21,074 bases of DNA from the IMG/VR virus record IMGVR_UViG_3300024520_000571, positions 1-21,074 of that record; one strand, given 5' to 3'. This DNA comes from a virus. Positions within the stretch are counted from its first letter, which is position 1. Each line of letters starts with the position of its first letter. Shown piece after piece: positions 2,631 to 20,527 of the stretch. The notes beneath the pieces are model-generated. The model was not told the origin of the DNA. It made no database searches and saw nothing but the letters and a program-made list of their open reading frames with translations. Position numbers and translations under genes: made by a program.

Positions 2631-3386
2631 CTACTCGTTGTAGTTGATCTGCTGATTATGGTTCACGTCTGTATCCTGATCCTCGGTGCGGCCGGCAACG
2701 CGCTCGTCCAATAGCCGCAGGCCCTCAATCTTCTCATCGCGCCAGTCGCTCTGCTCCAGCCCCTTCTTCATGCGGGAGCTTGCCAATAGGTCATGGGCTG
2801 ACCACAACTCACGCGGCAGGCCGATGTCGTCGTTGTCGCTGGTCAGGATCGGGGCGTCTTTCCAGTAATGGGCAAACAACGATCCCTCGTCAGCCACAAA
2901 GTCGGTGTCCGGTACACGCATAAAGCCCAAGTAGTCCTGTTGCCAAATGGTGTAATTGTCCGGCTCTCCAAGGGTGTCTGTCTGGGCGGCGAACTGAGCC
3001 ACCGTAGAGGCGTCGCCAACCCCAGATCCGGGCGGGAACGACCGCAGGAACGGCCATGCCTTCAGTAGGTTGTCATAGGACATATAGGTGATCATTTTAT
3101 CGGCCCGGTTCATCGACAGGGGCGAAGCCATCTTGTGATAGTCACCCGGTAACTCGTACCACATCTGACCAACTGCCAAGTCGATCTCAAAATGCTCAAG
3201 GCGCCATTGCCACAACTTCTTGTAGAAGATGTCGTCTCGTGCGTCCTGCACGGCATTGATCGCCATTGTGACGTGGCGCGTCGGGCTGGCCACCGAGATG
3301 ATGGTCCCCTTGCCGGAGTTGTTCATAACCCTGACCACTGCTTGCAGCAGCGTGCGCTCATTTCCTGTTGATCCTACGACTACCAT
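2631..3386 (-). CDS. Head-tail adaptor (tail tubular protein A-like)
   Basis: A protein of 251 residues. The segment AINAVQDARDDIFYKKLWQWRLEHFEIDLAVGQMWYELP (about residues 42-81) fits the helix-then-strand core of T7 gp11/P22 gp4-type adaptors, which sit between the portal ring and the tail nozzle. In that family an 'A...A..ei....w.f......' helix leads into 'y.LP.dy..'; here this is YELPGDYHKMASPL. The C-terminus is hydrophilic (EDQDTDVNHNQQINYNE) and probably disordered. AGGAG lies 5 bases before the ATG. It follows the tailspike gene by 8 bases and precedes the nozzle gene, the normal order for adaptor and nozzle. The overall assignment is moderately secure; which adaptor subfamily it belongs to is not. 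Confidence 0.7.
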   Translation of the reverse strand: MVVVGSTGNERTLLQAVVRVMNNSGKGTIISVASPTRHVTMAINAVQDARDDIFYKKLWQWRLEHFEIDLAVGQMWYELPGDYHKMASPLSMNRADKMITYMSYDNLLKAWPFLRSFPPGSGVGDASTVAQFAAQTDTLGEPDNYTIWQQDYLGFMRVPDTDFVADEGSLFAHYWKDAPILTSDNDDIGLPRELWSAHDLLASSRMKKGLEQSDWRDEKIEGLRLLDERVAGRTEDQDTDVNHNQQINYNE

Positions 3387-6044: not shown

Positions 6045-6434
6045 CTATCGGTGCGCTTCCCAGACCCAGGTATCCGCGTCCGTCAGCAGAGCCGCCGGAA
6101 TCGAGAACCCGTGACCGTCAGCGGTACTGTCGCCACCAGTGCCGTCCCAAGTGTCGTCCTCGGTGTCGCCGTAAAGAGCAACAGCCGTAACGCCCTTGGT
6201 GATGAACCCGGTAGACCCGGTGATCAGAAGGCAGTTCGACACGGCCAAGCCCTTGACCCAGATGTAGACATCGGGGTTGGTGGCATCGGTCATGTTGTAA
6301 AGCACGATCTTGGACGGGACAAACCCGATCAAGAACGTCGCAATCGTTCCGTCAGAAGTCAGCAGGCCAGACGCCATCGCCTTCGCCGAAGATTCGCCGC
6401 CGGGATTGCTATAAGTGATCGCTTCAGTCGCCAT
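6045..6434 (-). CDS. Probable capsid decoration / minor head protein
   Basis: A protein of 129 residues starting MATEAITYSNPGG, from an ATG at 6434 with AGAGGTG 5 bases upstream. An in-frame start 18 bases further up has no comparable site. The protein is Thr/Gly/Ala-rich with alternating hydrophobic strands (IATFLIGFVPSKIVLYNMTDA, NCLLITGSTGFITKGVTAVALYG) and a C-terminus TWVWEAHR, giving an all-beta impression. It lies directly after the major capsid gene and was probably produced at similar level, since both sit upstream of the stable hairpin. This position and composition suit a head decoration or cement protein. No family was recognised, so the role is inferred. Confidence 0.65.
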   Translation of the reverse strand: MATEAITYSNPGGESSAKAMASGLLTSDGTIATFLIGFVPSKIVLYNMTDATNPDVYIWVKGLAVSNCLLITGSTGFITKGVTAVALYGDTEDDTWDGTGGDSTADGHGFSIPAALLTDADTWVWEAHR

Positions 6435-6461
6435 TGTTTTCACCTCTTTCAAGGATTGGTG

Positions 6462-7550
6462 TTACCACTGTGCCAGAACTTCGATACGAGCCATGTAGGT
6501 CTCGTTGAGAATGACACTCGTTTTTGCGAACTTCCAGCCCGCGGTCGAGCGCTGGTGCAAAGCATCGGCGTTGCCACCGGCTTTGTTGAAGTACGTTGCC
6601 GAACTTCCAGCCAGCTTCACGACACCGTAGGCGTCCTTGGCCAAGCACAGGCACGAGTAAACGTCGCCCAGCGTGGTTCCAGTCGTCGAACGGTAGACAG
6701 CGGTTCCGTTGTTGGTCGTGCCAACAGTGGTGTTGCCGCCAGTGTCAGGCCAGACCTTGGCCAGCGTGGAGGTCAGGATACGGAAGCCGCGATAGCTACC
6801 GATCTCCGTCGGGTACGCCACGTTGCCGGCGGCATACCGCTCACGCGGGGTCCAATCCTCACCCATAGCAGCCAAGGTGTTCAGCTTTTTCAAGCTGTGA
6901 GCCACATGGGGGTGAACGATCATGATGTAAGCCGGCGCCAAGGGTTCCGTGGAAATCTTGGTGCTGGCGTTCATCTGGCCGTGGAACATGGTAGCGTTCG
7001 CAGCCTCGAACATCGTCAGGATCGAATCCATCGCCGTGGCAGTCAGGACGCCATTGACGGTGGTACGAACGCCGACGCCAACGGTCGGGCTAGCGCCATC
7101 AGCGGTGACCCGCAGGAAGCTGGTGCCAGCGTTGATCACGTCTCGCGTGATAACGTCAGCGGTTTCAGCAGACTGCTCGGCCAGGCGCCGGGTCGCGATG
7201 CTCAGGACAGGATCAGGAGAGAAGAACTGCACCTGATCGGTGATTCCCACCCAGTCGCCGTACCATTTGACAGCGCCAGTGACGTTCTCGTAGGCCAGCT
7301 TTTTGCCGGGAGGGGTGATGCCGTCGGCCAGCGGGGTGGTGTTGATGGCGAGCTTCAACCAGCGCCGCCAAACAACGGTTTCGCCATTGCCCTTGGGCAA
7401 GGTCGCCTTCATTCCGAAGCGGTCGTGGACCAACTTCGGCATTGCGACACTAAGGTAGGTCTTGAAGTAGAAGCCCTGAGTCAACAGGGGCATCGTACCT
7501 GAATCACTACCAGAGGCCCGCAATTCGGCCATAGTGTTAAAACCGGACAT
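6462..7550 (-). CDS. Major capsid protein, N4-gp56 family
   Basis: A protein of 362 residues with several signatures of the N4-gp56-type HK97-fold capsid family: GETVVWRRWLKL near 56-67, ADGITPPGKKLAYENVTGAV near 75-94 with the following YGDWVGITDQ, the IVHPHVAHSLKKL helix (211-223), a GSYRGFRIL strand (251-259), DAYGVVKLAG (306-315), and ADALHQRSTAGWK (328-340), which matches the family's 'DPLNQRGTVGWK' element. It builds the icosahedral shell. AAGGAG lies 7 bases before the ATG at 7550. The gene follows the scaffold gene by 17 bases, the usual order. This is the most secure structural assignment in the window besides the terminase and portal. Confidence 0.92.
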   Translation of the reverse strand: MSGFNTMAELRASGSDSGTMPLLTQGFYFKTYLSVAMPKLVHDRFGMKATLPKGNGETVVWRRWLKLAINTTPLADGITPPGKKLAYENVTGAVKWYGDWVGITDQVQFFSPDPVLSIATRRLAEQSAETADVITRDVINAGTSFLRVTADGASPTVGVGVRTTVNGVLTATAMDSILTMFEAANATMFHGQMNASTKISTEPLAPAYIMIVHPHVAHSLKKLNTLAAMGEDWTPRERYAAGNVAYPTEIGSYRGFRILTSTLAKVWPDTGGNTTVGTTNNGTAVYRSTTGTTLGDVYSCLCLAKDAYGVVKLAGSSATYFNKAGGNADALHQRSTAGWKFAKTSVILNETYMARIEVLAQW

Positions 7551-8760: not shown

Positions 8761-10645
8761 GTGCAGCCTCCCTTAGTTGGGCTTCAATCTGTTTCTGTTC
8801 AAACTCAGCCAACTTAGCCTCGAATTCTTCCTGAGACATGACCAGCGATCCGCTGATGTCCCCGAGGATCTCTTTCATAGTCAGCGTCCACAATTCGGCC
8901 TCGCGAACCGGGGTTGGCCTGCCAGAGGCCGCTGCGCCGTCGACCATCTGCTGCGCCATGAGCAACTGCTGTATCCTCTGGTCCTTCTCTGCGAGGTGCT
9001 TGGACCCTGCAGAATAGACGTACCAGCCCCGCCGTATGGCGGCTGGGTCGATTTTTAACTGAGACAAACTGCCGTCCTGAGTAATCGAGATAATCTGCTC
9101 ATCGGTCAAGTATTGAGCGTTCATCTCGAAAGAGATATTCATGGACTCATTCAGGAACTCATCCTCGAAATCTACGACATGGCTCCCCAGCTTGCCGGCA
9201 ATGACATTGGTGTTCCGCGCCGTGCGCGTGGCCGACTCGTCAGACCCGCCAGAGGTGTTAATCGCCCCGGTGATTCGCTCGTGACGGGCAATGGACGCAC
9301 GTTCAGCCTCGAACCCCATCGGGATACCCTGGAAGTTTTTAACGATAGGCGTGATCGTATTTGCCCGCTCGACCATGTGGTGAACCCCGGGGCCGCTGGG
9401 CTTCATCTCGCCGTCGGTCAGGTCAACCTCCACGACCTCCATTTCCGGCTGAATCACGGTGTTTACCGCGTCGATGTTCTGGTTATGGATCGCGTTGGCG
9501 GTGTCCTGTTCGTCCAGGGCCTTCTCGATTATCCCCGTGCCATACGGGTCGCCATCCAGCTTGATCAGCCGCGCATTGTTCAACTGCGGGCGCCCCGAAT
9601 ACATCGGAGACGGCTCACAGCGGATCAGGGTGTTGCCGGCGATGGTGGCAATGTAATTCTCGTAGAGTCCCTTGTTTCCGTGGGCACCACTCAATTCAAA
9701 GGTGCCGTGCATCTCTTTGACCTCGTTCTTGTCAACGCCGTGTGGCATTTCCAAACCCATAGCCATTTTGAACAGGGCCTCGGCCTCGTTGTCTGATTCG
9801 CGTTCCTCACTACTGGTTTCGTTGATCTTTTCGATGTTCTCGTACAGCCGGTATCCGTCTTCGTCTGGCTTGGCCAGCTTCTTCAGATACTCGGTGGTCC
9901 TCCAAGACCGGCCTATCCGCAGGCTGGAGAAATCGTCGTTCGGGTGCTGCTCTTGAACATAGTTGAAAATGCTCATGATCTGAAGGACCGGGCCCTGGAA
10001 GATAAGGTCAGTCTCGACAGGCGGCCGCGGGGGTTCCTCGAACTCGGGCGGTGGGGGCGGCGGCTGACCAAGCAGTGCCAACTGCTCCTTTACCTGAGTG
10101 TACTCACTCTTTATCTGCTCGAATTCAACGTGATATTCAGCTATATCCTCCAGCCACTTCTCCATCGCCTCGTTGGTCCGCAGGTAGTCGGGCGCACTCA
10201 TGGTCTTCCACGCCATCGTCCACGGGCAGTTACCGGTGATCATCATGGACTTGAGCCCAAGACTTGCGGTCTGCCGGTACTTGCCGAACATCATCTGGTA
10301 CTTGGCCAACTGCTTCATCTGCTCGGCGTATTTATCATCGCTCTGGTCGAAACCCGGGACCAGCGGCCGCAACTGCAGCCAGTCCTCAACACCGAACACC
10401 GCGTCAATGATCTGGGGTGTGACCGTCTCAACTGCATCGCCATTGAGGTTTACGAACCGATGGGAGCGATTGGCTTGCTTGGCGAACTGGACCCACTTCT
10501 TGTCATGCTCGCACAGGTAGGACAATACGCAGCGTTTCCATGTTTCCTCGCGGACAGAGCGCTCGTCCTTCATCTGCTTCCAGTTGTCACGAACAAGATC
10601 CCTGATCTCGTTCTGTGCGGCCCGTGATTTCACAACAATAGCCAT
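8675..10645 (-). CDS. Portal protein
   Basis: A protein of 656 residues from an ATG at 10645 whose A is shared with the terminase stop (TGATG), with GGAGG 6 bases upstream; a TTG one codon earlier is too close to that site. The portal ring is the DNA entry channel at one capsid vertex and docks the terminase. Evidence: size, position directly after the large terminase, and the typical podovirus portal run of VTPQIIDAVFG (75-85) near the N-terminus. A coiled segment and a Pro-rich insert (195-209, GQPPPPPP) follow, then the central DPYGTGIIEKALDEQDTANAIHNQNIDAV, the clip/stem-like helix pattern found in long portals. The C-terminus is a Gln/Ala-rich helix (EEFEAKLAEFEQKQIEAQLR) with a Gly-rich tail. 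Confidence 0.88.
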   Translation of the reverse strand: MAIVVKSRAAQNEIRDLVRDNWKQMKDERSVREETWKRCVLSYLCEHDKKWVQFAKQANRSHRFVNLNGDAVETVTPQIIDAVFGVEDWLQLRPLVPGFDQSDDKYAEQMKQLAKYQMMFGKYRQTASLGLKSMMITGNCPWTMAWKTMSAPDYLRTNEAMEKWLEDIAEYHVEFEQIKSEYTQVKEQLALLGQPPPPPPEFEEPPRPPVETDLIFQGPVLQIMSIFNYVQEQHPNDDFSSLRIGRSWRTTEYLKKLAKPDEDGYRLYENIEKINETSSEERESDNEAEALFKMAMGLEMPHGVDKNEVKEMHGTFELSGAHGNKGLYENYIATIAGNTLIRCEPSPMYSGRPQLNNARLIKLDGDPYGTGIIEKALDEQDTANAIHNQNIDAVNTVIQPEMEVVEVDLTDGEMKPSGPGVHHMVERANTITPIVKNFQGIPMGFEAERASIARHERITGAINTSGGSDESATRTARNTNVIAGKLGSHVVDFEDEFLNESMNISFEMNAQYLTDEQIISITQDGSLSQLKIDPAAIRRGWYVYSAGSKHLAEKDQRIQQLLMAQQMVDGAAASGRPTPVREAELWTLTMKEILGDISGSLVMSQEEFEAKLAEFEQKQIEAQLREAALAQQGTDQAGGGAGQDGGGGVTGTPGAA

Positions 10646-12045
10646 CAAGATCCTCCGTATGGAAGGTCGCTCGCCTGAACGTATTTATTCCTTCGGTTGC
10701 GACGCTGCTGGGCACGTCTCCGCAACTCGTCTCTTGAACGCACCCTCATCGTCAGCCCACCTCGCCACATATCGTACATGTGGTCTTCAGCGTTAGTGTT
10801 TACGTCCTCAAGGTTCTTTTTGTCAACAGGCAGCGACGGGATCGTCCTGATGAAGTGGTGGCAGTGGCGCATCACCTTGAACCGAGACTTCCCGTTGGTC
10901 ACCGAAAGATACTGGTGGCAAACCTGCTTCTGTTGGACGCGGCTGTGTGGGCCTTTAGGCCATGCCTTCCAGCCCATGTCGCGGCCGCCCAGAAGTTCGT
11001 ATACCGACCCTCCGCCGTGGCCCTTCTCTTCCATTACCTGGCCATCAACCAAGCCCACTGGGATATAGAGGTCGTTAAGTTGCTCAAAGCTCTCCATTTT
11101 CCGGCGTAGTTCTTCAGGCGGCATCTCGCAACCAACGTTGGGCTTTCCGCCCCAGCCGTACATCTCGCTTCCCAAGATGATATCGCCGTCGTACTCAAAC
11201 ATATACCCAAGCGCAAACGGCTCTTTGTATCCCCAGTCAAGCGCCCGCCAGATCTTTTTGTCCGTTGGGATCGGGTACGGATCTATGATATGGACGTCTG
11301 GGTCCCACTCGGTAAACGCAGCGCCGGCCACGATGTCCCAGCGGCCCTCGACCAATGCGGCAGCCAGCACCGGGTCAAGGTTCTCGCTAACGCGATCTGC
11401 GTAATCGGGGTCGGCCTCATCAAGGATCTTGTTGTCCGATAGCTTCGCCGGGATAAATACCCGATGGGAAACCTTCTCCACGCCCTTGCGCTTTGTTCTG
11501 ATGACCTGAGCCACCATCGGCGCTACAGGGTCAACAAAGCGAGCCTTTACCCAGTGATGCCCCAGGCCGCCCGGGTTGCTTGCGCACCTGATACGCGGCT
11601 GTACGCCCTTTGCGGAGCGCAAACGGGAGATCATGTATGTGTACTGGAAGTCAGTTGCCCACTGGGTCAACTCGTCAAAACCAACCCACTGGTAGTCCTG
11701 CCCCTGGTAATGGTCCACGTCATCATCGCGCTCAAGATGGCGGAACTGAAGCACGGCGCCATTTGGGAACCGCCACTCGTTCTTCGAGGCATTGAAGCAC
11801 CGCGGGCCGTAGATCGGCAGGAATATCTGCTTCGACCGGCGAATAACAGCGTCCATGTCATTAATGTGCCGGCGGAAGAATACACCAATCCAGCCCTCCC
11901 CGTTGGGGATACCGCGGGCATAGTCACCAAGCAGAGCGTCGGTCTTGCCGCCACCAAGGGCGCCACCATAAAGGACCTCGAACGCTGGGCAGCGCACGAA
12001 TAGTTCCTGTGGTCCTACTTGGGGTTGCCATGCAACTTGCGCCAC
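10645..12045 (-). CDS. terL: Terminase large subunit (packaging ATPase/nuclease)
   Basis: A protein of 466 residues that pumps and cuts phage DNA at the portal. N-terminal ATPase: Walker A at 27-35 (GGALGGGKT), Walker B with catalytic Glu in VGFDELTQW (FDE 123-125), and coupling motif CASNPGG (154-160). C-terminal RNase H-like nuclease: first Asp in RALDWGY (D270), second in GLVDGQV (D334), third cluster in AEDHMYD (419-425). All three acidic positions expected for metal-dependent cleavage are present. The C-terminus is strongly basic (RRRAQQRRNRRNK). Translation starts at GTG 12045, overlapping the preceding TAG by one base. Length and motif order match the Terminase_6-type large subunits of podoviruses. 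Packaging strategy cannot be read from these data. Confidence 0.95.
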   Translation of the reverse strand: MAQVAWQPQVGPQELFVRCPAFEVLYGGALGGGKTDALLGDYARGIPNGEGWIGVFFRRHINDMDAVIRRSKQIFLPIYGPRCFNASKNEWRFPNGAVLQFRHLERDDDVDHYQGQDYQWVGFDELTQWATDFQYTYMISRLRSAKGVQPRIRCASNPGGLGHHWVKARFVDPVAPMVAQVIRTKRKGVEKVSHRVFIPAKLSDNKILDEADPDYADRVSENLDPVLAAALVEGRWDIVAGAAFTEWDPDVHIIDPYPIPTDKKIWRALDWGYKEPFALGYMFEYDGDIILGSEMYGWGGKPNVGCEMPPEELRRKMESFEQLNDLYIPVGLVDGQVMEEKGHGGGSVYELLGGRDMGWKAWPKGPHSRVQQKQVCHQYLSVTNGKSRFKVMRHCHHFIRTIPSLPVDKKNLEDVNTNAEDHMYDMWRGGLTMRVRSRDELRRRAQQRRNRRNKYVQASDLPYGGS

Positions 12046-12526: not shown

Positions 12527-13627
12527 TCAATTTCCTCCGGTTGCAGTAAGATCTGTCGGTGGGTCGGTAATGTCTCCCGGTCCTTCAACAAGGCCGCCGC
12601 CGGACTGCCCCACAACTATCGGGAACCCGGCGGACTTTACGCCATTCTCATCCACTACGAAAATGTACGCATCGGCCTCGCCATCGAAAGACCCGGTGTT
12701 CACGGTGAATGAAATTTCGTCATTGGCCCAAGCTGTCGGGATCTGCACCTCGCGGTGCGTGCACGAGTTATAGTCAACGTTGTCCCCCACTTCAACCCGC
12801 GCCAGAGAGGTGTCGATATACACATCGTCAATGTAGAAGTCGTCACGGTCAGTACCGCCATCTATCCAAGAGTTGAAGAACCCAAGGATCAGCGGATACT
12901 TGTAGGTGGCGAGATTCTGGCGGGTCATAAAGGTGGTGTTGTTGACAACCCTGTATCCGTTGTGCCACCACCTGAATGTCCCATTTGCCACTCCAATATC
13001 GCTTGAGATAAACTCAAACTGAAAGCATTGCCACACGCCGGGGGTGAAGTTGCTTCTGGAATAGAAATCTCGCTGTTGCTGCGGCGGCTCAATAAGCTCC
13101 ATGCTGTATTGCATAAGGCCGTTTCTCCAAGAAGCAAACGAGAGGTTTTCCTGCCCCCCGGCGTGCCACAACCTAAACATCTTCACGTTGGCTAAATTAG
13201 CGTCGGCACTACCAGCCGGGCCTGCGCCCCAGTTCCAGTTTGTGTCCAGCTTGAACCAATACTGGCAAAACCATGTTGCGCTTCTCGTATCGCTGGGGGC
13301 TTCAAAGGCCCCGTAGTAACCGTCACCACCACTGCCCTGAAAGTTGTGGTTGCCATTATAGGCTGAATTCCCGTGCCTCGCGTCACTGGTGTTAATTCTG
13401 GCTACGGACACACCGCCCCAGTTAGGGTGGAAACCCCCGGTCTCCATGTTGTCCCAGATGTGGGGTGGGACAGTACTTTTTGTTCCCGGGTTCGTGACAC
13501 TGATTGTGGCAGATGTGCCGTGGTCAAAGATGGAGGTGCCGAGTCCGGTTACGACCGGGGCGGCAACGGCCACGGTGGAGAGGCAAAGGAAAGCAGCGGC
13601 GATTGTCAGTTTACTCAAACGTAACAT
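12527..13627 (-). CDS. Exported jelly-roll protein (lectin/polysaccharide-lyase-like)
   Basis: A protein of 366 residues. Residues 1-23 (MLRLSKLTIAAAFLCLSTVA, then VAA) are a Sec signal peptide. Residues 24-52 look like the first strands of an IPT/TIG-like sandwich (VVTGLGTSIFDHGTSATISV). About 55-280 is a jelly roll of the LamG/concanavalin or polysaccharide-lyase type, with FQYWFKL-like strands (WFCQYWFKLDTNW), GVWQCFQFEF and the terminal DDFYIDDVYID. Residues 291-340 (EVQIPTAWANDEISFTVNTG, FVVDENGVKSAGFPIVVG) look like the remaining sandwich strands. The protein ends PPTDLTATGGN, the start of a fibronectin-III domain that is not there. GGAGGT lies 9 bases upstream; the start overlaps the deacetylase end by 17 bases. 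Probable glycan binding; a lyase active site cannot be claimed. Confidence 0.78.
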   Translation of the reverse strand: MLRLSKLTIAAAFLCLSTVAVAAPVVTGLGTSIFDHGTSATISVTNPGTKSTVPPHIWDNMETGGFHPNWGGVSVARINTSDARHGNSAYNGNHNFQGSGGDGYYGAFEAPSDTRSATWFCQYWFKLDTNWNWGAGPAGSADANLANVKMFRLWHAGGQENLSFASWRNGLMQYSMELIEPPQQQRDFYSRSNFTPGVWQCFQFEFISSDIGVANGTFRWWHNGYRVVNNTTFMTRQNLATYKYPLILGFFNSWIDGGTDRDDFYIDDVYIDTSLARVEVGDNVDYNSCTHREVQIPTAWANDEISFTVNTGSFDGEADAYIFVVDENGVKSAGFPIVVGQSGGGLVEGPGDITDPPTDLTATGGN

Positions 13628-16600
13628 AGGCCGAGAACCTCCGGTTGGTGTAGGTAGTTGGGGTCGTTAGGCTCGCGGGCGGGAACGATCCATAGTTGAG
13701 TTGGATATATTCGCCTATCAGGGTCGGCGTGTTTTCTTCGCTGTCGAACCAGACTATTGCGCTGGTTGTACTGGTCTCATCAACTGATAACATCAGGTAC
13801 AACTCTTCCCCGATTGTCGCTGCGTATGGGGTGTCGAACGTGACTACGTGATACCCGGTGAGCCCCACACTGAGCGCCGTGCCGCTGGCCTTTAGCGCGT
13901 CATCAGTCCCGTATAGCCCCATCTTTATGTTGAAGTCGTTATCCAGTGTTTCGATGTACCAGCTACCACTGACCACACTGCTAGTGCTGGGCATGACAAT
14001 CTTTCCAGCGTAGCAGTCGTCACTGTCCACGTTCCTCGAAAAATCCGTGGCGATGGTGCCGTAACCAACTGAGTCATCGTCAGCAGGGTCGAACCTCGTA
14101 AATACCGATTGGTGCAGGCTCCACCCGCTCACGTTTGGCGTACCCTCTGTATCTCGCAGGCGAAACCGTGTGAAGATCTCTACATTGGCCGCACCTGCTG
14201 GGTTTATGTCATCAAGGGCTAGTGTGGTAAAGATGGTGTCGCCAACCGTGGACGATGCGGGCTCGCTCCAAACGCCGTCACCGTAGTACCCAGAGTTGAC
14301 ATCATTGGACCACTGGAACTCAACCTGCCCAATCTCATTGATGGTCATATCAGTGAGCGTGAGTTTTATGTTACTCCCATTGGTGGTGTCCACAACAACG
14401 CCAGCGAACACGCCAGTAGTATCGGGGGGTGTGGTATCCGGGCCAGTGTCCGCAACGCTTGTATAGACCGACAACGCCTCCACAGTGGCTACCGGGGTCT
14501 CGGTTCCGGCATAATAGGCGTCAGTGTCCTTGACTGCGTGTATGCTGGTATAAACCCCTACGGTCTGATTGTAGAATATGGAATCTATGACCGCAACGGC
14601 GCTCAGTAAATCATCAGCGGTGGCCCCGAATATGCGGTACAGCATCCTGTCACGGGTTGGTGGGTTGAGCGACCCAGTGGCGTCATGATCATAGGTTGTG
14701 GCGCCACCCGCAATAGTGGTGTCTACGTCTGACCACGACCCCCCGGAGGGTTGCATTTGCATGTGGTAATGGTCCTGTCCAACCCCGGCTACCCATGTTA
14801 GGTCAATGCCGCCGACATCTGCATTGTACCCAGATTCAGCGACTCCCGAGTCATAGAGGCCGTTCCAATTCGCCGACTTCGTGGCTGTCCACGCAGCGCC
14901 CACAGTGTCTATCGCTGCATCGTGCCTACGGTGCACTATACGAACAAAAGCAGGGGTATTTAGGCTGGCATCAGCTATGTCTACTATCACATTGCCAGAA
15001 GACATCGTTGGCTGATCCAACTGAAAGCCAGTGAAGGAGACAACCGGGATCACGGTTGGGGTTGACGTTGCCTCCCCACTAAAACCAGACTCATTAGAGT
15101 CATCGTCTACGGCAGTCACCTTGTAATAGTAAGTCGCAGAATCAGCGGCGATGGAGATATCGTTGTACCATGCCGAAGGGATGTTGTCTTTATACAGGGC
15201 GTAGGCGCCAGCGTCAATCTTGCGATATACGCTGTACGAGGCAAGGTCGCCCTCGGTGTTGGCCTCCCACGACAGATACGCCGAGGTGGGCTCAGTTCCC
15301 ACGTCAAGCCCGGTAGGGGCCTCGGGGACATCAATGGCAGCCGCCTCTGCCCTGGTGGTGCGCACCCCACGTATGTGTCTCTCGTCAACACCGTTTGGGA
15401 TATACCACACCCGGTCACCCAGGCTAAATTTCAAACTATCGTTTGCCGCGTACCCGTAAGGAGTCGTGACCTCCACAGCACCAGACCGACGGTGCCGGCC
15501 AAGCTCGCTGGCCCGCATAGTGGGGATTCCGTACTCGTCCAGCACATCACAAATGACTTCTAGTTCGTCTGGGTCCACGCCCTCGTCATACCAATCGGGA
15601 CCGTAGGACTTGGTTTCATGCCAGAACAAAACAATCTCGCCACGGTCCTGCCCGCGGATCTGATTGACTAAACGGCGCATGTTGTGAGCAACGGAATCCA
15701 GGTCAAACGTGACGCTATCCTTGGCTCCAACGATTTGTTTTACCTCAACAGTCGGGGCAACGCCAAGCATATTTCTAGCCCTGCGTCCATACTGAGACGG
15801 GGCCCCTGACATGGAAGAGTCTGCCCTTGCTGGCGCGAATACACCGACTGATTGGTAGTAAAAGTCCCTCGTATACAAGTCCATCGAACCGGTGCGCATT
15901 GTCAGATAATCGTGATCAACAATGGCGTTCATAACCTCGCCGCTGTACCTGTTGTTCGGCAGGGCTATTGACTTGCCAAAATAAAGGTCGTCAGCCCTAC
16001 TGTCGCCGTCTGCAGAATCAGCAAGCGCGTAGAGCCAATCAGGGCGCGAGTCGGCTACGATGGAGTCCACGACCGCCTGTGTGATCTCCCCGGCAACCTG
16101 TTGCCAGTGAGGCAACCCCTCGGTTCCGACATCGTTCTTGTGGTGCCAAGAGTGTGTCCCAACCTCCATATCGTCATCATCACGCCACGACAGGATCTTG
16201 GCCATATCGGCCTGATAGATATTCGCAGCGTCGACATGAATCCGCGCGCCGAATATTGTGTATTTCATATTGTGGCGATCAAACACCGTAATGAACGAGT
16301 CGTTGTCGGCCGCAATGAAGTCGTCCGTTGAAAACACCGCAACGGCGTCCGAGTTGCCGGGGTACGGCGCAACGTACCGTTTGGTCAGGTACTTGATTTT
16401 AATATATGGCTGGCGGCCTATGGCGCTGCTATAGGCGTCCCAGCCAAAGATAAGTGCCTGCCTTGCTGTGTTCTCAGACTCCTGATATATCGACATGATG
16501 CCATTGTTTACGTTCCCGTTTACGGCCGACTGAACGCAGTCTGTAATATCAAACTCGATCTGCCGAGGGCGCTCTGTCCCGCTGTTGTAGGCTGGGAAGA

Positions 16601-17390
16601 AGTTGTCTTCGATGCTGCCAGACCAGTCATTGCAATCCCCTAAATCCCAGTATGGAACCGCAGACAGATCCACCGACCACGGGAACCCCTGTGAGACATC
16701 AGACCACGAGCCGCCATTGGTATCCTGCTGAAAATCCCACGACGCCTTGGCATAGTTCGGGGAGTTGGTCACCCCAACGCCGCCTTTGTTCTCATACCAA
16801 GCCGAGTCACCTGGAGCATCAAGCATCACGGAAATAACCGTGTCCACAAAGTTCAGGTAGAATGTGTTGAAATTGGAATAGTAATTCGTAGCATCAACAA
16901 TAGTAGAACGGTCCGGAATAATATCCTCATAAGGGACGTAGAAAACAGGCACCTCGCGCCCAGCGGCGGTATTCCCCACATTCTGTTTCAAGTAGTTAAC
17001 CGAGTCGATTACCTGCCGGACATCAGCGGTTGAGTAAATGAACTGGGAACCATAGAACCCGTCGGTGTCGTTTTCCTTGAGAATTGTCCACGCGAATTCT
17101 GGGATATCCTTGCCGGTGCCAAGTTCGTAAACCTCGTCGGCTGCGGCTATATCAGCCAGGAATTGTTCAGTGTATAACGAGTCGTTGTGCGTGGCCGAGG
17201 CGGGGTATGTCATGCTCGCGTTCGGCGTCAGGATGATGGTTATTTCTTCCCACCCAGCCCCGGGCTGCTGGCCGCCGGGCTGCTTTGACAAGCCAACCAT
17301 CTCGACCGGCCCTACACGAGACGGGTCCACGTTGCCCATAAGGGACAGCACGGCACAGATGATCACCAATGGCCACAGTAGCCGCTTCAT
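13611..17390 (-). CDS. Giant exported polysaccharide deacetylase (CE4/NodB-like) with glycan-binding domains
   Basis: A protein of 1259 residues. Residues 1-19 are a signal peptide (KRLLWPLVIICAVLSLMG). About 170-340 resembles a DNRLRE/CBM96-type carbohydrate-binding domain (WDFQQDTNGGSW, FDITDCVQSAVNGNVNNGIM). About 345-630 is a NodB-homology deacetylase: AVFSTDD with D356/D357, the metal motif HSWHH (H413, H417), ALPNNRYSGEV as the motif-3 region, LTMRTG, and VLFWHE with H591. About 687-779 is a fibronectin-III domain (SAYLSWEANTEGDLASYSVYRK). Two or more FN3-like sandwiches follow, then a C-terminal sandwich (1105-1259). CE4 enzymes remove N- or O-acetyl groups from polysaccharides using a metal ion. 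The start overlaps the preceding stop (TAATG). It may act on the virion or as a secreted enzyme; the signal peptide favours export. Confidence 0.85.
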   Translation of the reverse strand: MKRLLWPLVIICAVLSLMGNVDPSRVGPVEMVGLSKQPGGQQPGAGWEEITIILTPNASMTYPASATHNDSLYTEQFLADIAAADEVYELGTGKDIPEFAWTILKENDTDGFYGSQFIYSTADVRQVIDSVNYLKQNVGNTAAGREVPVFYVPYEDIIPDRSTIVDATNYYSNFNTFYLNFVDTVISVMLDAPGDSAWYENKGGVGVTNSPNYAKASWDFQQDTNGGSWSDVSQGFPWSVDLSAVPYWDLGDCNDWSGSIEDNFFPAYNSGTERPRQIEFDITDCVQSAVNGNVNNGIMSIYQESENTARQALIFGWDAYSSAIGRQPYIKIKYLTKRYVAPYPGNSDAVAVFSTDDFIAADNDSFITVFDRHNMKYTIFGARIHVDAANIYQADMAKILSWRDDDDMEVGTHSWHHKNDVGTEGLPHWQQVAGEITQAVVDSIVADSRPDWLYALADSADGDSRADDLYFGKSIALPNNRYSGEVMNAIVDHDYLTMRTGSMDLYTRDFYYQSVGVFAPARADSSMSGAPSQYGRRARNMLGVAPTVEVKQIVGAKDSVTFDLDSVAHNMRRLVNQIRGQDRGEIVLFWHETKSYGPDWYDEGVDPDELEVICDVLDEYGIPTMRASELGRHRRSGAVEVTTPYGYAANDSLKFSLGDRVWYIPNGVDERHIRGVRTTRAEAAAIDVPEAPTGLDVGTEPTSAYLSWEANTEGDLASYSVYRKIDAGAYALYKDNIPSAWYNDISIAADSATYYYKVTAVDDDSNESGFSGEATSTPTVIPVVSFTGFQLDQPTMSSGNVIVDIADASLNTPAFVRIVHRRHDAAIDTVGAAWTATKSANWNGLYDSGVAESGYNADVGGIDLTWVAGVGQDHYHMQMQPSGGSWSDVDTTIAGGATTYDHDATGSLNPPTRDRMLYRIFGATADDLLSAVAVIDSIFYNQTVGVYTSIHAVKDTDAYYAGTETPVATVEALSVYTSVADTGPDTTPPDTTGVFAGVVVDTTNGSNIKLTLTDMTINEIGQVEFQWSNDVNSGYYGDGVWSEPASSTVGDTIFTTLALDDINPAGAANVEIFTRFRLRDTEGTPNVSGWSLHQSVFTRFDPADDDSVGYGTIATDFSRNVDSDDCYAGKIVMPSTSSVVSGSWYIETLDNDFNIKMGLYGTDDALKASGTALSVGLTGYHVVTFDTPYAATIGEELYLMLSVDETSTTSAIVWFDSEENTPTLIGEYIQLNYGSFPPASLTTPTTYTNRRFSAYVTFE

Positions 17391-17869
17391 TACCGCACCG
17401 AGTCGTAGGCTTCAATCACTATCGTATCGGTCGCGGCCGGCGCGAGCGCCCAATAAAAATTGCCGTAGAACGTCTCTCCGGCCGCGGAAACAGGCACCGC
17501 CCCAAAGCTGTCACCAACCCCCTGATCGAACAAGGTGTCCTTCTGGGCTGCTGACAACGCCGTGGTGATCAAATCAGAATTGGTGTCGTCATCAAGCCCG
17601 ACGCCGACAGTCCACTTCGTCTGGATCATTCGCAAGCGGAAATCCGTGCCAGATGATCCAAGGTGGGATCTGACGATGATTAGATCAGGAATAACCCCAA
17701 ACAGGGCCGGCAGGTCCAGTAGTTGGTTGGCGCCCGTATCGGGGACCCACATATAGGTGCCCTTGTGGACGTAGCCAAACGGCTCGGCCTGAACGTCCTT
17801 GACGACAGCGAACGCCGCCAGGATGAATAGAACCAGCATGATCAGGGCGAATTTGTGTTCGGTTTTCAT
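17390..17869 (-). CDS. Exported protein of unknown function
   Basis: A protein of 159 residues. Residues 1-28 form a clear Sec signal peptide with a long hydrophobic core (FALIMLVLFILAAFAVV) and a probable cut after VQA. The mature part begins EPFGYVHKGTYMWVPDTGANQ and is rich in alternating hydrophobic residues and Asp/Thr, suggesting a small beta-sandwich (IPDLIIVRSHLG, FRLRMIQTKWTVGVGLDDD, ATDTIVIEAYDS). It is coupled to both neighbours: ATGA with the zinc-ribbon gene upstream and TAATG with the deacetylase downstream. This tight linkage suggests it works with the deacetylase, for example as a binding partner or virion anchor. No family was recognised. Confidence 0.75.
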   Translation of the reverse strand: MKTEHKFALIMLVLFILAAFAVVKDVQAEPFGYVHKGTYMWVPDTGANQLLDLPALFGVIPDLIIVRSHLGSSGTDFRLRMIQTKWTVGVGLDDDTNSDLITTALSAAQKDTLFDQGVGDSFGAVPVSAAGETFYGNFYWALAPAATDTIVIEAYDSVR

Positions 17870-18186
17870 TTCTTTCCGCCCTTCTTGGTCGACTTCTTTG
17901 TTCCACGTAGAGCGCTCTTGACCTTGCCCATCTTGCCAGGCTTGGCCTTGGCGGGCTCCCGCGGGATCTCCGCCACCCTTGCCTCAACAGGGGGATCATC
18001 TGGCTCAACCGGCGCTAGCGGCACTACAGCGGCCTTGAACTTCGCAGAAGCAGCCAGCGTCTCGGTCTTCTCCTTCGTCACCACATAGCCGCACGAACGG
18101 CAATAGTACGGACCCTTCGGGTCACCGGGCCGCAGTACGGTCAACTTCTCGCCAGTGTCGCAAAACTGATTCGGACACGAAATCAC
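17866..18186 (-). CDS. Zinc-ribbon protein with basic Lys-rich tail
   Basis: A protein of 106 residues starting at GTG 18186, chosen because GGAGGT lies 6 bases upstream and no ATG is nearby. Two Cys pairs, CPNQFC (residues 4-9) and CRSCG (about 29-33), are spaced to make a four-Cys zinc ribbon of about 30 residues. A Pro/Val-rich linker (VVPLAPVEPDDPPVEARVAEIP) follows, then a very basic tail (KAKPGKMGKVKSALRGTKKS, KKGGKK). Nucleic-acid binding or a protein-interaction scaffold is plausible from the zinc ribbon and tail. It is embedded in the exported-protein cluster but has no signal peptide itself. I do not know its function. Confidence 0.75.
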   Translation of the reverse strand: MISCPNQFCDTGEKLTVLRPGDPKGPYYCRSCGYVVTKEKTETLAASAKFKAAVVPLAPVEPDDPPVEARVAEIPREPAKAKPGKMGKVKSALRGTKKSTKKGGKK

Positions 18187-18201: not shown

Positions 18202-18603
18202 TTAAACCTTCGACTCGTCCAATTTGTGGTCGCCGCACCAGTCGTGCGGAAACACAACAGGGAAGCCTAGCTTCTGGCCCGCGGCCGGCGAGTGACGGCG
18301 ACAGCGCCCCAGCTTGGCCTCGCCATCGGGCCCCTGGTTCGAAATCGCCACCTTGGTGACGAACCACATACACGTCCGGCACTGCATACCGGTGGAGCGG
18401 TGGGCCCAAGGGTCGCCCATGAGCGGCGCAGCCAAGTGCTTGCCCTCAACAGAGTCAACAGGACAATCAAGCGTGTGAGAGAACCCGTTCGGGGCGCCGC
18501 AGGTGCAGTTAGAACATGAATCCTCATGCAACACGCCATCAGGTCCGTTCGGGCACTGAGGACAATGATAATCGTTCAAACAGCCACATTCCGTACAAGG
18601 CAT
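18202..18603 (-). CDS. Cys-rich putative metal-binding protein
   Basis: A protein of 133 residues with 13 cysteines, from an ATG at 18603 with GGGAGG 6 bases upstream; an in-frame ATG 27 bases earlier lacks a site. The N-terminal part has CTECGCLNDYHCPQC (two tight Cys pairs) and CSNCTC. The C-terminal part has QCRTCMWF...GRCRRHSP...FPVVFPHDWCGDHK, a pattern seen in small phage proteins where four Cys probably hold zinc or an iron-sulfur cluster. The two halves look like separate metal sites. The gene is preceded by a 16-bp palindrome ending 32 bases before the ATG, the same as the one before the neighbouring exported protein. The molecular role is unknown. Confidence 0.75.
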   Translation of the reverse strand: MPCTECGCLNDYHCPQCPNGPDGVLHEDSCSNCTCGAPNGFSHTLDCPVDSVEGKHLAAPLMGDPWAHRSTGMQCRTCMWFVTKVAISNQGPDGEAKLGRCRRHSPAAGQKLGFPVVFPHDWCGDHKLDESKV

Positions 18604-18635
18604 CAGGCACCTCCCAGTTAAGCTATCCACCTACT

Positions 18636-18660: not shown

Positions 18661-19173
18661 TCAGTAACCAAGATCCAACTGAACAGAGTCGCCGCCGGCC
18701 TCGGCAATGTAAATCGAGTCCGGATACGATACAATGGCCCAACAGGGGTACTCCAGGCCGGGGGTGCCGTTACCAGACATATATGTGGTAGTATCAGCTA
18801 CGTCAAACCACGTCCGGGGCGTCTCACCGTTCGCAAATGCACGATAAGTGAAAGGAACCCGGGAATACAACAGCGCCGTCTTGACAGGACGCTTGATCGT
18901 CAGAACCTCGCCAGTATAATTCGCGCCAACAGGAACCTGCTTCGGGGGATGCCACGCGGAAATCTCAGCCGCGGCCAAGCCGTCAAAATCAAGGCCGGCG
19001 CCGGCATTGGCCTGGGAGGCCGTAAACCACAGCGTATCAAGCGTCACACCGGCCCCAACGACCGACTGGTGGAACGTGCAGTCGTCAAACACAGCAGACC
19101 GGTCAGGACCACCAAGAGCCACCACACCCACAAAAAGAGCCAACACCAAGAAGAACGAACCAACAAAACGCAT
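18661..19173 (-). CDS. Exported protein of unknown function, first gene of the accessory cluster
   Basis: A protein of 170 residues from an ATG at 19173 with GGGAGGT 7 bases upstream; the longer in-frame version would run through the control region and is rejected. Residues 1-20 (MRFVGSFFLVLALFVGVVAL) are a Sec signal peptide, likely cut before GPDRS. The mature protein has a beta-rich appearance (VLTIKRPVKTALLYSRVPFTY, YPCWAIVSYPDSIYIAEAGG) and two Cys that could form a disulfide outside the cytoplasm. It resembles the small exported protein at 17390-17869 in size and composition only. It is the promoter-proximal gene of the minus-strand cluster and is controlled from the palindrome-bearing region upstream. 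No family recognised. Confidence 0.78.
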   Translation of the reverse strand: MRFVGSFFLVLALFVGVVALGGPDRSAVFDDCTFHQSVVGAGVTLDTLWFTASQANAGAGLDFDGLAAAEISAWHPPKQVPVGANYTGEVLTIKRPVKTALLYSRVPFTYRAFANGETPRTWFDVADTTTYMSGNGTPGLEYPCWAIVSYPDSIYIAEAGGDSVQLDLGY

Positions 19174-19881: not shown

Positions 19882-20250
19882 CTACCCGTCACCATTGGGC
19901 CCCCTGCTTGGGTCGCGTGCTGGTAGGGCCAGTTCGGCGCCCTGGCTCATGAGCTTCAGGGCCTGGGCCTGCCAATCGGTCATGTCTTCGCACGGTACAG
20001 GGATCAGCACCACCGCCGGGGCTTTGGTCGTCTGGTCGTTGAACCCGTGAGCCTTGGCCTCGAGTTCGTGCAACACCTTGGTCGACCGGGCGAGGTGGCC
20101 GATGTCGCTGGCGTCCAGTCCGCCCTCCTTCACCCTGCCGGCAATCGCCTGCTGTAGCTTGTCAAGGTCGCGCACCTGCCGGCGGACCACCTGCCCTACC
20201 TTGTTCTGCTTCGCTGTCGCCCTGGTCAACTCCTGCTTCTTGCCTGCCAT
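19882..20250 (-). CDS. Helical protein, possible terminase small subunit
   Basis: A protein of 122 residues starting at ATG 20250, set by AGGAGGTG 6 bases upstream; a longer in-frame version would run through the operator region and has no site. The N-terminal half is basic and helical (AKQNKVGQVVRRQVRDLDKLQQAI). It is followed by DASDIGHLARSTKVLHELEAKAHGFND, then a strand PAVVLIPVP and MTDWQAQALKLM. A helical DNA-binding half, an 'ELE.KA.G' helix and a 'VV.IPVP' oligomerisation strand resemble small terminase subunits, which bind phage DNA and hand it to the large subunit. Against this, it lies about 8 kb from the large subunit gene. The gene is secure; the function is a hypothesis. Confidence 0.7.
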   Translation of the reverse strand: MAGKKQELTRATAKQNKVGQVVRRQVRDLDKLQQAIAGRVKEGGLDASDIGHLARSTKVLHELEAKAHGFNDQTTKAPAVVLIPVPCEDMTDWQAQALKLMSQGAELALPARDPSRGPNGDG

Positions 20251-20304
20251 CGTATGCACCTCCTGTTGACTGAAGGATAACACACTAGGGGCATCCAGGC
20301 ACCT

Positions 20305-20316
20305 GTGAACTTTCAC
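20305..20316. promoter_or_regulatory. GTGAA-CT-TTCAC dyad
   Basis: A 12-bp dyad with 5-bp arms, 54 bases before the start codon of the 122-residue protein gene. It is related to the dyad at 19317-19328 and is joined to one copy of the CACCACACCTG direct repeat. Confidence 0.4.
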
Positions 20317-20324
20317 CACACCTG
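20314..20324 (+). repeat. CACCACACCTG direct repeat, copy 1
   Basis: An exact 11-base repeat of 20633-20643. A shorter match (CACACCTG) lies at 19326-19333. The copies flank the divergent intergenic region. Confidence 0.5.
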
Positions 20325-20339
20325 TTGGATTTGTTGTGA

Positions 20340-20357
20340 GTGTACCGTGAGGTACAC
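20340..20357. promoter_or_regulatory. 18-bp operator-like palindrome A
   Basis: GTGTACC-GTGA-GGTACAC, with perfect 7-bp arms. Compared with the reverse complement of palindrome B at 20402-20419, 16 of 18 bases agree. It lies 90 bases before the start of the 122-residue protein gene. Confidence 0.65.
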
Positions 20358-20361
20358 CAGG

Positions 20362-20379
20362 TGCAACATTTATGTTGCA
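20362..20379. promoter_or_regulatory. Palindrome between operators A and B
   Basis: TGCAACAT-TT-ATGTTGCA, with perfect 8-bp arms and a 2-bp centre, 4 bases from palindrome A. Its sequence differs from A and B, suggesting a second binding protein. Confidence 0.6.
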
Positions 20380-20401
20380 GTAGACGAGCGGGCGGCGGCA
20401 T

Positions 20402-20419
20402 GTGTACCTCAGCGTACAC
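20402..20419. promoter_or_regulatory. 18-bp operator-like palindrome B
   Basis: GTGTAC-CTCAGC-GTACAC, with perfect 6-bp arms. It is spaced 62 bases from palindrome A start to start, close to six helical turns, so a protein bound at both would face the same side of the DNA. Confidence 0.65.
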
Positions 20420-20527
20420 CGTCCCCAAATCCACATCCCCGAATAGACCGCCCTTCTAAGTAGACAGCACAACGCACCGCGCCCCTCCTGCTCTTGGTTC
20501 GGAGGTAGTATCTTTCTAGCCTAAGAG

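Follow-up and report, generated by a model that had tools for sequence, protein, structure and literature searches.

A putative NodB-type deacetylase with a signal-peptide-like start, encoded in a slot of variable content next to the terminase genes of a phage

Main finding

A large gene (P0001) was identified in a stretch of viral DNA of 21,074 nucleotides (IMG/VR record IMGVR_UViG_3300024520_000571, positions 1 to 21,074; referred to here as the window). P0001 is a single open reading frame at 13611-17390 that encodes 1259 amino acids; the initial annotation had reported an open reading frame of this size, which was found again and lies on the minus strand. On balance, P0001 probably is a Sec-exported enzyme that modifies host-surface glycan and whose gene sits in an exchangeable slot next to the terminase genes. 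The reading draws on a NodB-type domain, on the variable contents of the slot in related phages and on signal-peptide-like starts that recur in the proteins of this clade.

The predicted NodB-type domain

Residues 345-640 of P0001 (15471-16358, minus strand) are best read as a predicted NodB-type metal-dependent deacetylase domain. The Pfam profile PF01522 (Polysacc_deac_1), which has a cut-off of 23.1 bits, matches residues 351-436. The score is 21.3 bits for the whole protein, under the cut-off, and 24.3 bits for the fragment 341-650 and 23.8 bits in the genome search, both over it. Since the whole-protein score is only 21.3 bits, the match is judged real but marginal. It is not put down to chance, because a phage relative (L090) encodes a homologue with 32% identity to residues 306-785 (E 3e-53) and because D356, D357, H413, H417 and H591 are all among just 13 invariant columns of 200 ungapped columns in an alignment of four divergent phage NodB sequences.

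These five residues belong to motif 1 (D356-D357, base and metal ligand), motif 2 (HxxxH with the metal ligands H413 and H417) and motif 5 (catalytic H591), and the positions given earlier for D356-D357, H413-S-W-H-H417 and F-W-H591-E were correct. In the predicted site, D357, H413 and H417 would hold the metal, D356 would act as the base and H591 as the acid, and the domain may strip acetyl groups from the capsule, O-antigen or matrix glycan of the host. Alignment with hhalign placed motifs 1 and 2 of both NodB subtypes found in these phages in register with bacterial PF01522 proteins, at probabilities of only 19% and 1%. AlphaFold2 models built from four sequences for residues 44-690 and from three for residues 338-640 had mean pLDDT values of 29.4 and 34.3, respectively, too low to judge the distorted beta/alpha barrel that such a domain would have.

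Motif 3 (RxPY/RxPW) is replaced in P0001 by ALPNNRYS at residues 476-483, and strict membership in family CE4 is therefore not claimed; of the earlier description as a CE4-type deacetylase, the NodB-type assignment of residues 345-640 with motifs 1, 2 and 5 stands and the strict family assignment does not. Motif 4 (DxxDW) is not recognisable in P0001 or in the L090 protein, and DQW or DW occurs near that place in the proteins of L005 and L172. With motif 3 degenerate, the domain could be a catalytically inactive NodB fold that only binds glycan. The loss of RxPY, the unrecognisable motif 4 in two of the proteins and the marginal Pfam score agree with such a loss of function, but invariance of all five expected catalytic and metal-binding residues in four divergent proteins makes it improbable.

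Other regions of P0001

The hydrophobic N-terminus (residues 1-20; 17331-17390, minus strand) is a candidate Sec signal peptide or signal anchor. It passes a crude Sec signal-peptide rule, but a clear AxA cleavage site is not seen, and a signal anchor is for that reason possible. Through this N-terminus, P0001 would enter the Sec pathway and act extracellularly or in the envelope of the host.

Residues 48-340 (16371-17249, minus strand; boundaries approximate) form a DNRLRE/CBM96-like region that may bind polysaccharide. The profile NF033679 matches residues 264-316 with an E value of 0.0014 and 18.7 bits, below its cut-off of 34 bits, so that the domain named in the initial annotation is detected at a sub-threshold level. 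The same profile matches the L005 protein (25.1 bits) and the L165 protein (29.3 bits), both under 34 bits, and is the sole NCBIfam match in these three proteins. It did not match the L172 or L086 proteins.

A conserved sequence, RVWYxPxGxDxRxIRGVR, was identified by alignment with the L090 protein at residues 660-677 (15360-15413, minus strand), between the NodB-type domain and a fibronectin type III (FN3)-like unit. The latter, at residues 689-775 (15066-15326, minus strand), resembles a repeat of the L090 protein (E 7e-10) and two Salinibacter plasmid proteins. Several FN3-like sandwiches had been proposed; this one unit was recovered, whereas the remainder, residues 790-1259, gave a weak DUF4082 match alone (residues 1133-1205; 13776-13994, minus strand; E 0.076).

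The gene run between the terminase genes

P0001 is part of a coupled run of three minus-strand genes. The upstream gene, P0011 (17390-17869), encodes a small protein with a signal-peptide-like start, has a homologue at the same place in L005 and overlaps P0001 by one base. The downstream gene, P0010 (12527-13627), overlaps P0001 by 17 bases and encodes a protein with a signal-peptide-like start, an IPT-like part and a lectin- or lyase-like part. P0010 matches the C-terminus of the fused giant proteins of L090 and L084; its PF14099 match is weak (E 0.02), and a search of PDB sequences with it gave no meaningful match. P0001 would be made together with both neighbours. Upstream of the run, a further minus-strand gene (18661-19173) encodes a small protein with a signal-peptide-like start that resembles, by eye, L173:10685-11317 (L086 contig).

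The run is flanked upstream by a TerS-like gene (19882-20472, minus strand), assigned by its by-eye resemblance to L005:2061-2555, and downstream by P0009, the terminase large subunit gene (TerL; 10645-12045, minus strand). P0001 thus lies apart from the tail genes, as had been stated before. A beta-helix tailspike with a signal-peptide-like start is encoded by P0002 (3395-5479, minus strand). The capsid gene has a long plus-strand open reading frame opposite it (6051-7502), which was dismissed as a mirror frame.

The exchangeable slot in related phages

The place beside the terminase genes holds different proteins in different relatives, two of which are apparently complete phages of about 45 kb. 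Its contents include NodB proteins, giants that fuse NodB, FN3 and P0010 parts, or a propeller-like protein. In L005, a P0011 homologue is followed by a NodB-like protein that begins like a signal peptide and then by TerL. L084 and L090 contain the giant fused versions with the P0010-like domain at the end, and L086 contains the different, propeller-like protein. Nothing of the NodB-slot kind is present at that place in L006, L007 or L008; L006 and L007 may be one phage species in two samples. The NodB version is carried by only four phages and comprises two subtypes that BLAST does not join. A barrel-like part in the L090 and L084 proteins, the propeller of L086 and an SGNH-like protein of L165 were assigned by eye; none of them is supported by Pfam, nor is the barrel-like part of L090 by PDB sequences. 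The slot would be exchangeable, with relatives placing other export-signalled proteins there.

Between P0001 and the L005 protein, BLAST similarity is confined to the N-terminal 26 residues (54% identity, E 1e-4); beyond these the sequences have diverged or been swapped. A motif noticed after inspection of the data, [SRK][VIM]G[PG] following the signal stretch, occurs in all six large slot proteins compared with 19 of 2045 background open reading frames; P0011, P0010 and the 18661 gene do not contain it. A shared start on otherwise different proteins would also suit a putative second virion spike, in which the hydrophobic stretch and a DPxxxGPV sequence serve, in the manner of tailspikes, as an anchor for swappable enzymatic cargo, mounted inside the cell or at lysis. 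The beta-helix spike begins in a similar way, and the capsid of the archaeal virus HFTV1 is described as bearing a carbohydrate-binding-like and NodB-like protein (PMC12494034). This alternative is possible though less likely than not: the P0001 gene is outside the tail block, and a working signal peptide would take the protein out of the cytoplasm, the site of head and tail assembly.

The slot also bears on whether P0001 serves as an auxiliary metabolic CAZyme, with which an infected host could better exploit polysaccharide in its environment. The giant relatives join NodB, FN3 and other sugar-active-looking parts in the manner of bacterial secreted CAZymes, and the moron/AMG predictions from acidobacterial vOTUs include similar genes (PMC11924767). 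Such a role has a low probability, as the slot is coupled to structural genes and its content turns over fast among closely related phages, and the predicted export signal is common to the tailspike too.

Signal-peptide-like starts in the clade

Signal-peptide-like first starts, called by a crude script rule and not by SignalP, were found in all seven distinct homologues of the beta-helix tailspike. Duplicates and open reading frames open at contig ends were left out of this count, whereas an earlier count of 11/11 spikes included copies: L087 is the L005 contig, L091 the L008 contig, and L166 and L167 the L090 contig, and the L088 and L089 spikes were removed as duplicates of the L090 spikes. 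An A-x-A or A-x-G site is present in the same alignment column in six of the seven spikes, with VCG in the seventh. Among homologues of five neighbouring genes (P0003, P0004, P0005, P0007 and P0008) no such start was found (0/44), and the rule was positive for 1/67 major capsid proteins, 1/100 TerL proteins and 82/2206 background frames. The count of 3/3 for P0001 was not used, because it is made up of P0001, its cut copy (L001) and a small FN3 protein of L007. With a looser rule applied to 88 loci, 15 of 160 downstream frames were positive against 3 of 128 upstream frames, and several of the 15 (e.g., L158, L101 and L168) look false. The earlier remark, that a version with a signal peptide is unusual when encoded away from the tail genes, was supported and extends to a property of the clade, which combines a variable export-signalled slot with a tailspike of similar start. 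P0001 may act alongside this tailspike.

Spikes are usually pictured as being synthesised and attached to the virion in the cytoplasm, with virus assembly inside the cell. The retention of signal-peptide-like starts on tailspikes throughout this clade is at odds with that picture. A broader and unlikely model is that this clade, which has short-tail-type adaptor and portal genes, sends its host-facing glycan-active proteins, the tailspike included, through the host Sec pathway. Spikes and deacetylase would then reach maturity outside the cytoplasm and be added to virions only on lysis or later, and exported glycan enzymes would be exchanged at the terminase-side slot.

Homologue searches, host and lifestyle

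Searches of the viral_contigs collection with P0001 and with residues 331-663 yielded no direct homologue, and a DNA pattern for GTHSWHH found two loci, neither related. A search with the NodB alignment returned only the contig of L090 itself, and an alignment that included FN3 matched FN3 repeats only; a search of plasmids gave FN3 matches alone. No match to P0001 was found in INPHARED (tblastn) or among PDB sequences, and none to residues 346-424 in genome_contigs. Bacterial homologues were found in 0/198 genomes from the phylum to which a Nitrospirae MAG belongs, an empty answer that shows nothing. The capsid relatives in genomes are just 27-36% identical, and for this reason no host is named.

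An integrase is absent from all six records, several of which are fragments, and this weakens a reading as lysogenic conversion. It agrees, together with the signal-like start and the position in the late gene block, with a free exported late enzyme that alters the coat of the dying cell against trapping of progeny or further phage adsorption. The purified deacetylase of phage Aristophanes blocked adsorption (PMC8471582), and coat deacetylation can therefore abolish a receptor. This version of events is likewise possible though less likely than not, and in a diderm host the enzyme would need another system for passage of the outer membrane. For the favoured reading of P0001 as a Sec-exported, glycan-modifying enzyme, a benefit to adsorption or to release would be expected.

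Comparison with known systems

Where phage deacetylase activity has been tested in the literature consulted, the enzymes are SGNH tailspikes; of the NodB-like proteins of viruses, a single one has a structure, and it forms a capsid turret on an archaeal virus. If true, the placing of a NodB-type protein in an exchangeable slot with export signals would give phages another route to acetylated coats.

Gp31 of the archaeal tailed virus HFTV1 is a turret head protein of 413 residues that has been seen as a capsid turret (PMC12494034). As in P0001, a carbohydrate-binding-like domain is followed by a NodB-like deacetylase domain, for which action on host glycan has been proposed (PMC12494034); P0001, in contrast, has 1259 amino acids and is known here from its sequence. 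The term signal peptide did not come up in a text search of the HFTV1 article (PMC12494034).

Aristophanes gp41, Possum gp66 and G7C are SGNH deacetylating tailspikes or fibres (PMC8471582, PMC9569702), and polysaccharide deacetylation by the Aristophanes and Possum proteins was tested by NMR (PMC8471582, PMC9569702). All three deacetylate host polysaccharide, as predicted for P0001, but they are SGNH and not NodB proteins, have an N-terminal virion-binding part and are encoded with the tail genes. A signal peptide was not mentioned for these spikes in the parts of both articles that were consulted.

Genes annotated as polysaccharide deacetylase are also carried by the Campylobacter phage IBB_35 (gene 3-23) (PMC3322345) and by acidobacterial vOTUs (PMC11924767). 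These are annotations only, with no export signal or slot described in the parts consulted, and it is by description that they are set apart from P0001.

Bacterial secreted PF01522 deacetylases share with P0001 motifs 1, 2 and 5 and an export signal, which in P0001 is predicted. P0001 differs from them in the absence of RxPY, in its large N-terminal region and FN3 part, in its location in a phage structural block and in an hhalign probability of 19%.

Gene organization

The NodB-type protein P0001 is encoded by an open reading frame of 1259 aa at 13611-17390 on the minus strand of the 21,074-base IMG/VR record. In transcription order, the run consists of a TerS-like gene (19882-20472, recognized by eye) and genes encoding a small signal-started protein (18661-19173), a product rich in Cys (18202-18630), another that resembles a zinc ribbon (17866-18186) and P0011 (17390-17869), directly followed by P0001. 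P0010 (12527-13627) comes directly after P0001 and is followed by TerL (10645-12045), the portal, the scaffold, the major capsid protein (6462-7550), P0005, the beta-helix tailspike P0002 (3395-5479), the SU10-type adaptor P0004 and P0003. The P0011 stop and P0001 start have one base in common, P0010 overlaps the end of P0001 by 17 bases, and a GGAGG-like site precedes P0010; because of these features, the three genes look translationally coupled. The related phage contig L005 likewise has a zinc-ribbon-like or Cys-rich small gene (2755-3162, by eye) separating its TerS-like gene from the signal-started run. A plus-strand open frame of 483 codons (6051-7502) opposite the capsid gene was taken for a mirror frame.

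NodB domain and flanking regions

The polysaccharide deacetylase model PF01522 (cut-off 23.1 bits) matches residues 351-436 of P0001. The score is 24.3 bits with the fragment 341-650 as query and 23.8 bits in the genome search, both above the cut-off, whereas the whole protein (21.3 bits) falls below it. No match to P0001 was found in PHROGs, NCBIfam (whole-protein query) or PDB sequences. A protein of L090 (contig IMGVR_UViG_3300044950_000361) shows 32% identity over residues 306-785 (E 3e-53). Further NodB-like proteins occupy the same genomic position in L005 (3614-5452) and in the L084 contig, where the 5' part is L172:7777-9414. The four proteins form two subtypes, P0001 with L090 (34.6%, E 3e-49) and L005 with L172 (33.8%, E 1e-23), between which BLAST found no meaningful link. 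PF01522 does not match the L005 protein, and no Pfam model matched the L172 protein at E up to 1, so the assignment of these two as NodB-like rests on motifs and place.

The four-sequence alignment has 200 columns without gaps, and only 13 of them are identical throughout; these include D356, D357, H413, H417, H591, P478, Y495 and R499. The first five would correspond to the base, the metal-binding residues and the acid of the NodB family; they had been named in the initial annotation and are borne out by their invariance in four divergent proteins. Alignment by hhalign with six bacterial PF01522 proteins brought motifs 1 and 2, together with the G-Y stretch that comes after them, into register in each of the two subtypes (P-values 0.0012 and 0.042; probabilities only 19% and 1%). 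In AlphaFold2 models of the region, mean pLDDT was 29.4 with four input sequences and 34.3 with three, too low for a fold to be judged. The proposed CE4-type deacetylase is supported in part, as a NodB-type domain, by a marginal PF01522 match and conserved motif residues, but motif 3 (RxPY) of strict CE4 is absent, with ALPNNRYS in its place; an inactive NodB domain serving binding only remains a rival. P0001 is best described as a marginal, conserved NodB-type protein.

The flanking domains proposed earlier were retained in part. NF033679 (DNRLRE) is the sole NCBIfam match of the N-terminal regions, in three of five: P0001 (E 0.0014), L005 (1.6e-5) and a protein of the L008 phage (L165:16018-16941; 7.7e-7), all under the curated cut-off; the L172 and L086 regions gave none. 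Of the FN3 units proposed, one (residues 689-775) is supported, by its resemblance to an L090 repeat (E 7e-10). The conserved element RVWYxPxGxDxRxIRGVR sits between NodB and FN3, and the C-terminal 470 residues, left unassigned, show just a weak DUF4082 hit (E 0.076).

The slot upstream of TerL

Relatives were located via TerL and capsid alignments. Contigs with a TerL at least 50% identical to that of the window and >2.5 kb upstream were each counted once (n=8: window, L005, L084, L086, L090, L006, L007 and L008); L002, L085 and L176 also exceed 50%, but end upstream of TerL and were left out. A NodB protein lies directly upstream of TerL in four of the eight (window, L005, L090 and L084). 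In L086 the slot is taken by a signal-started protein of 1178 aa whose repeats look propeller-like by eye, and no large signal-started protein was found directly upstream of TerL in L006, L007 or L008.

L090 and L084 each encode a single protein that joins NodB to FN3 repeats, to a region resembling a barrel by eye and to a C-terminus like P0010. The L084 frame, running on in frame from L172, spans about 1,914 codons as computed across the joined contig ends. P0010 matches the C-termini of these proteins (35%, E 2e-51 for L090; 28%, E 2e-22 for L084), so the window carries a split version. A P0011 homologue precedes NodB in L005 as in the window (E 1.6e-8), and BLAST joins P0001 to the L005 protein over the first 26 residues only (54%, E 1e-4), the pattern seen where the head is kept and the cargo behind it swapped.

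The two ends of the L084 contig (IMGVR_UViG_3300037657_000018) are identical over 127 bases and those of the L005 contig (IMGVR_UViG_3300009506_000114) over 55 bases, which suggests that both, each of about 45 kb, are complete. The L008 phage carries three adjacent signal-started genes (small, DNRLRE-like and SGNH-like, by eye) at L165:15534-18689, downstream of a 2781-aa giant gene and away from the terminase genes. Giant proteins of about 2,600-2,800 aa are encoded in relatives (L171:260-8014, L174:693-8507, L165:6459-14804) and not in the window. A far more distant phage (TerL 36%) has two adjacent signal-started genes upstream of TerL (L075:3277-5459); the second of these begins like an FN3 domain and contains numerous short internal repeats.

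Signal-peptide-like starts

Signal peptides were scored by a crude script in place of SignalP, requiring a positive n-region, an uncharged hydrophobic stretch and small residues at -3/-1. Applied to the first start codon, the rule passes 82 of the 2206 complete ORFs without overlaps in all loci compared. It passes P0001, P0010, P0011, the L005 NodB and P0011 proteins, and all seven distinct, complete tailspike homologues, whose beta-helix genes occur in the window and in L005, L084, L086, L090, L008 and L092. None of 44 homologues of neighbouring proteins pass (P0003, 0/9; P0004, 0/8; P0005, 0/9; P0007, 0/7; P0008, 0/11), and one of 67 capsid and one of 100 TerL homologues do. In the aligned spikes, A-x-A or A-x-G occupies one shared column in six of seven (VCG in the seventh), immediately preceding the conserved N-terminal domain. 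In a comparison of 88 loci that encode a capsid homologue, spikes with a convincing start of this kind occurred only in this clade and in a few of its relatives (L008, L092, L096). This clade-wide, signal-peptide-like tailspike start is the most surprising part of the analysis.

The motif [SRK][VIM]G[PG], picked out only after the data were seen, follows the signal stretch in all six large slot proteins examined (background, 19 of 2045 ORFs). The P0001 N-terminus has a good hydrophobic core without a clear cleavage site, so it may be a signal anchor. Attachment of P0001 to the virion and a free late enzyme both remain rivals here.

Proposed function and known systems

On the observed slot, motif conservation and recurring signal-like starts, the best-supported reading is that P0001 would be a polysaccharide-binding deacetylase of the host surface in a cargo-swapping slot. 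We infer export, activity, substrate and benefit: P0001 would leave the cytoplasm via Sec, bind polysaccharide at the host surface and then deacetylate it, while the slot would carry glycan-active cargo exchanged among related phages, like spike swapping in phages. A metabolic CAZyme remains a rival. An integrase was not found in any of six records, some of which are fragments.

Searches of open-access literature listed no publication on signal peptides of tailspikes or fibres. The deacetylating proteins of Aristophanes (a spike) and Possum (a fibre) belong to the SGNH type (PMC8471582, PMC9569702), a capsid turret head protein of the archaeal virus HFTV1 combines carbohydrate-binding-like and NodB-like domains (PMC12494034), and polysaccharide deacetylases are annotated in Campylobacter phage IBB_35 (PMC3322345) and acidobacterial vOTUs (PMC11924767). 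Beside these, the P0001 locus is, as predicted from its sequence, an unusual, export-signalled and exchangeable phage locus with a marginal but conserved NodB-type protein.
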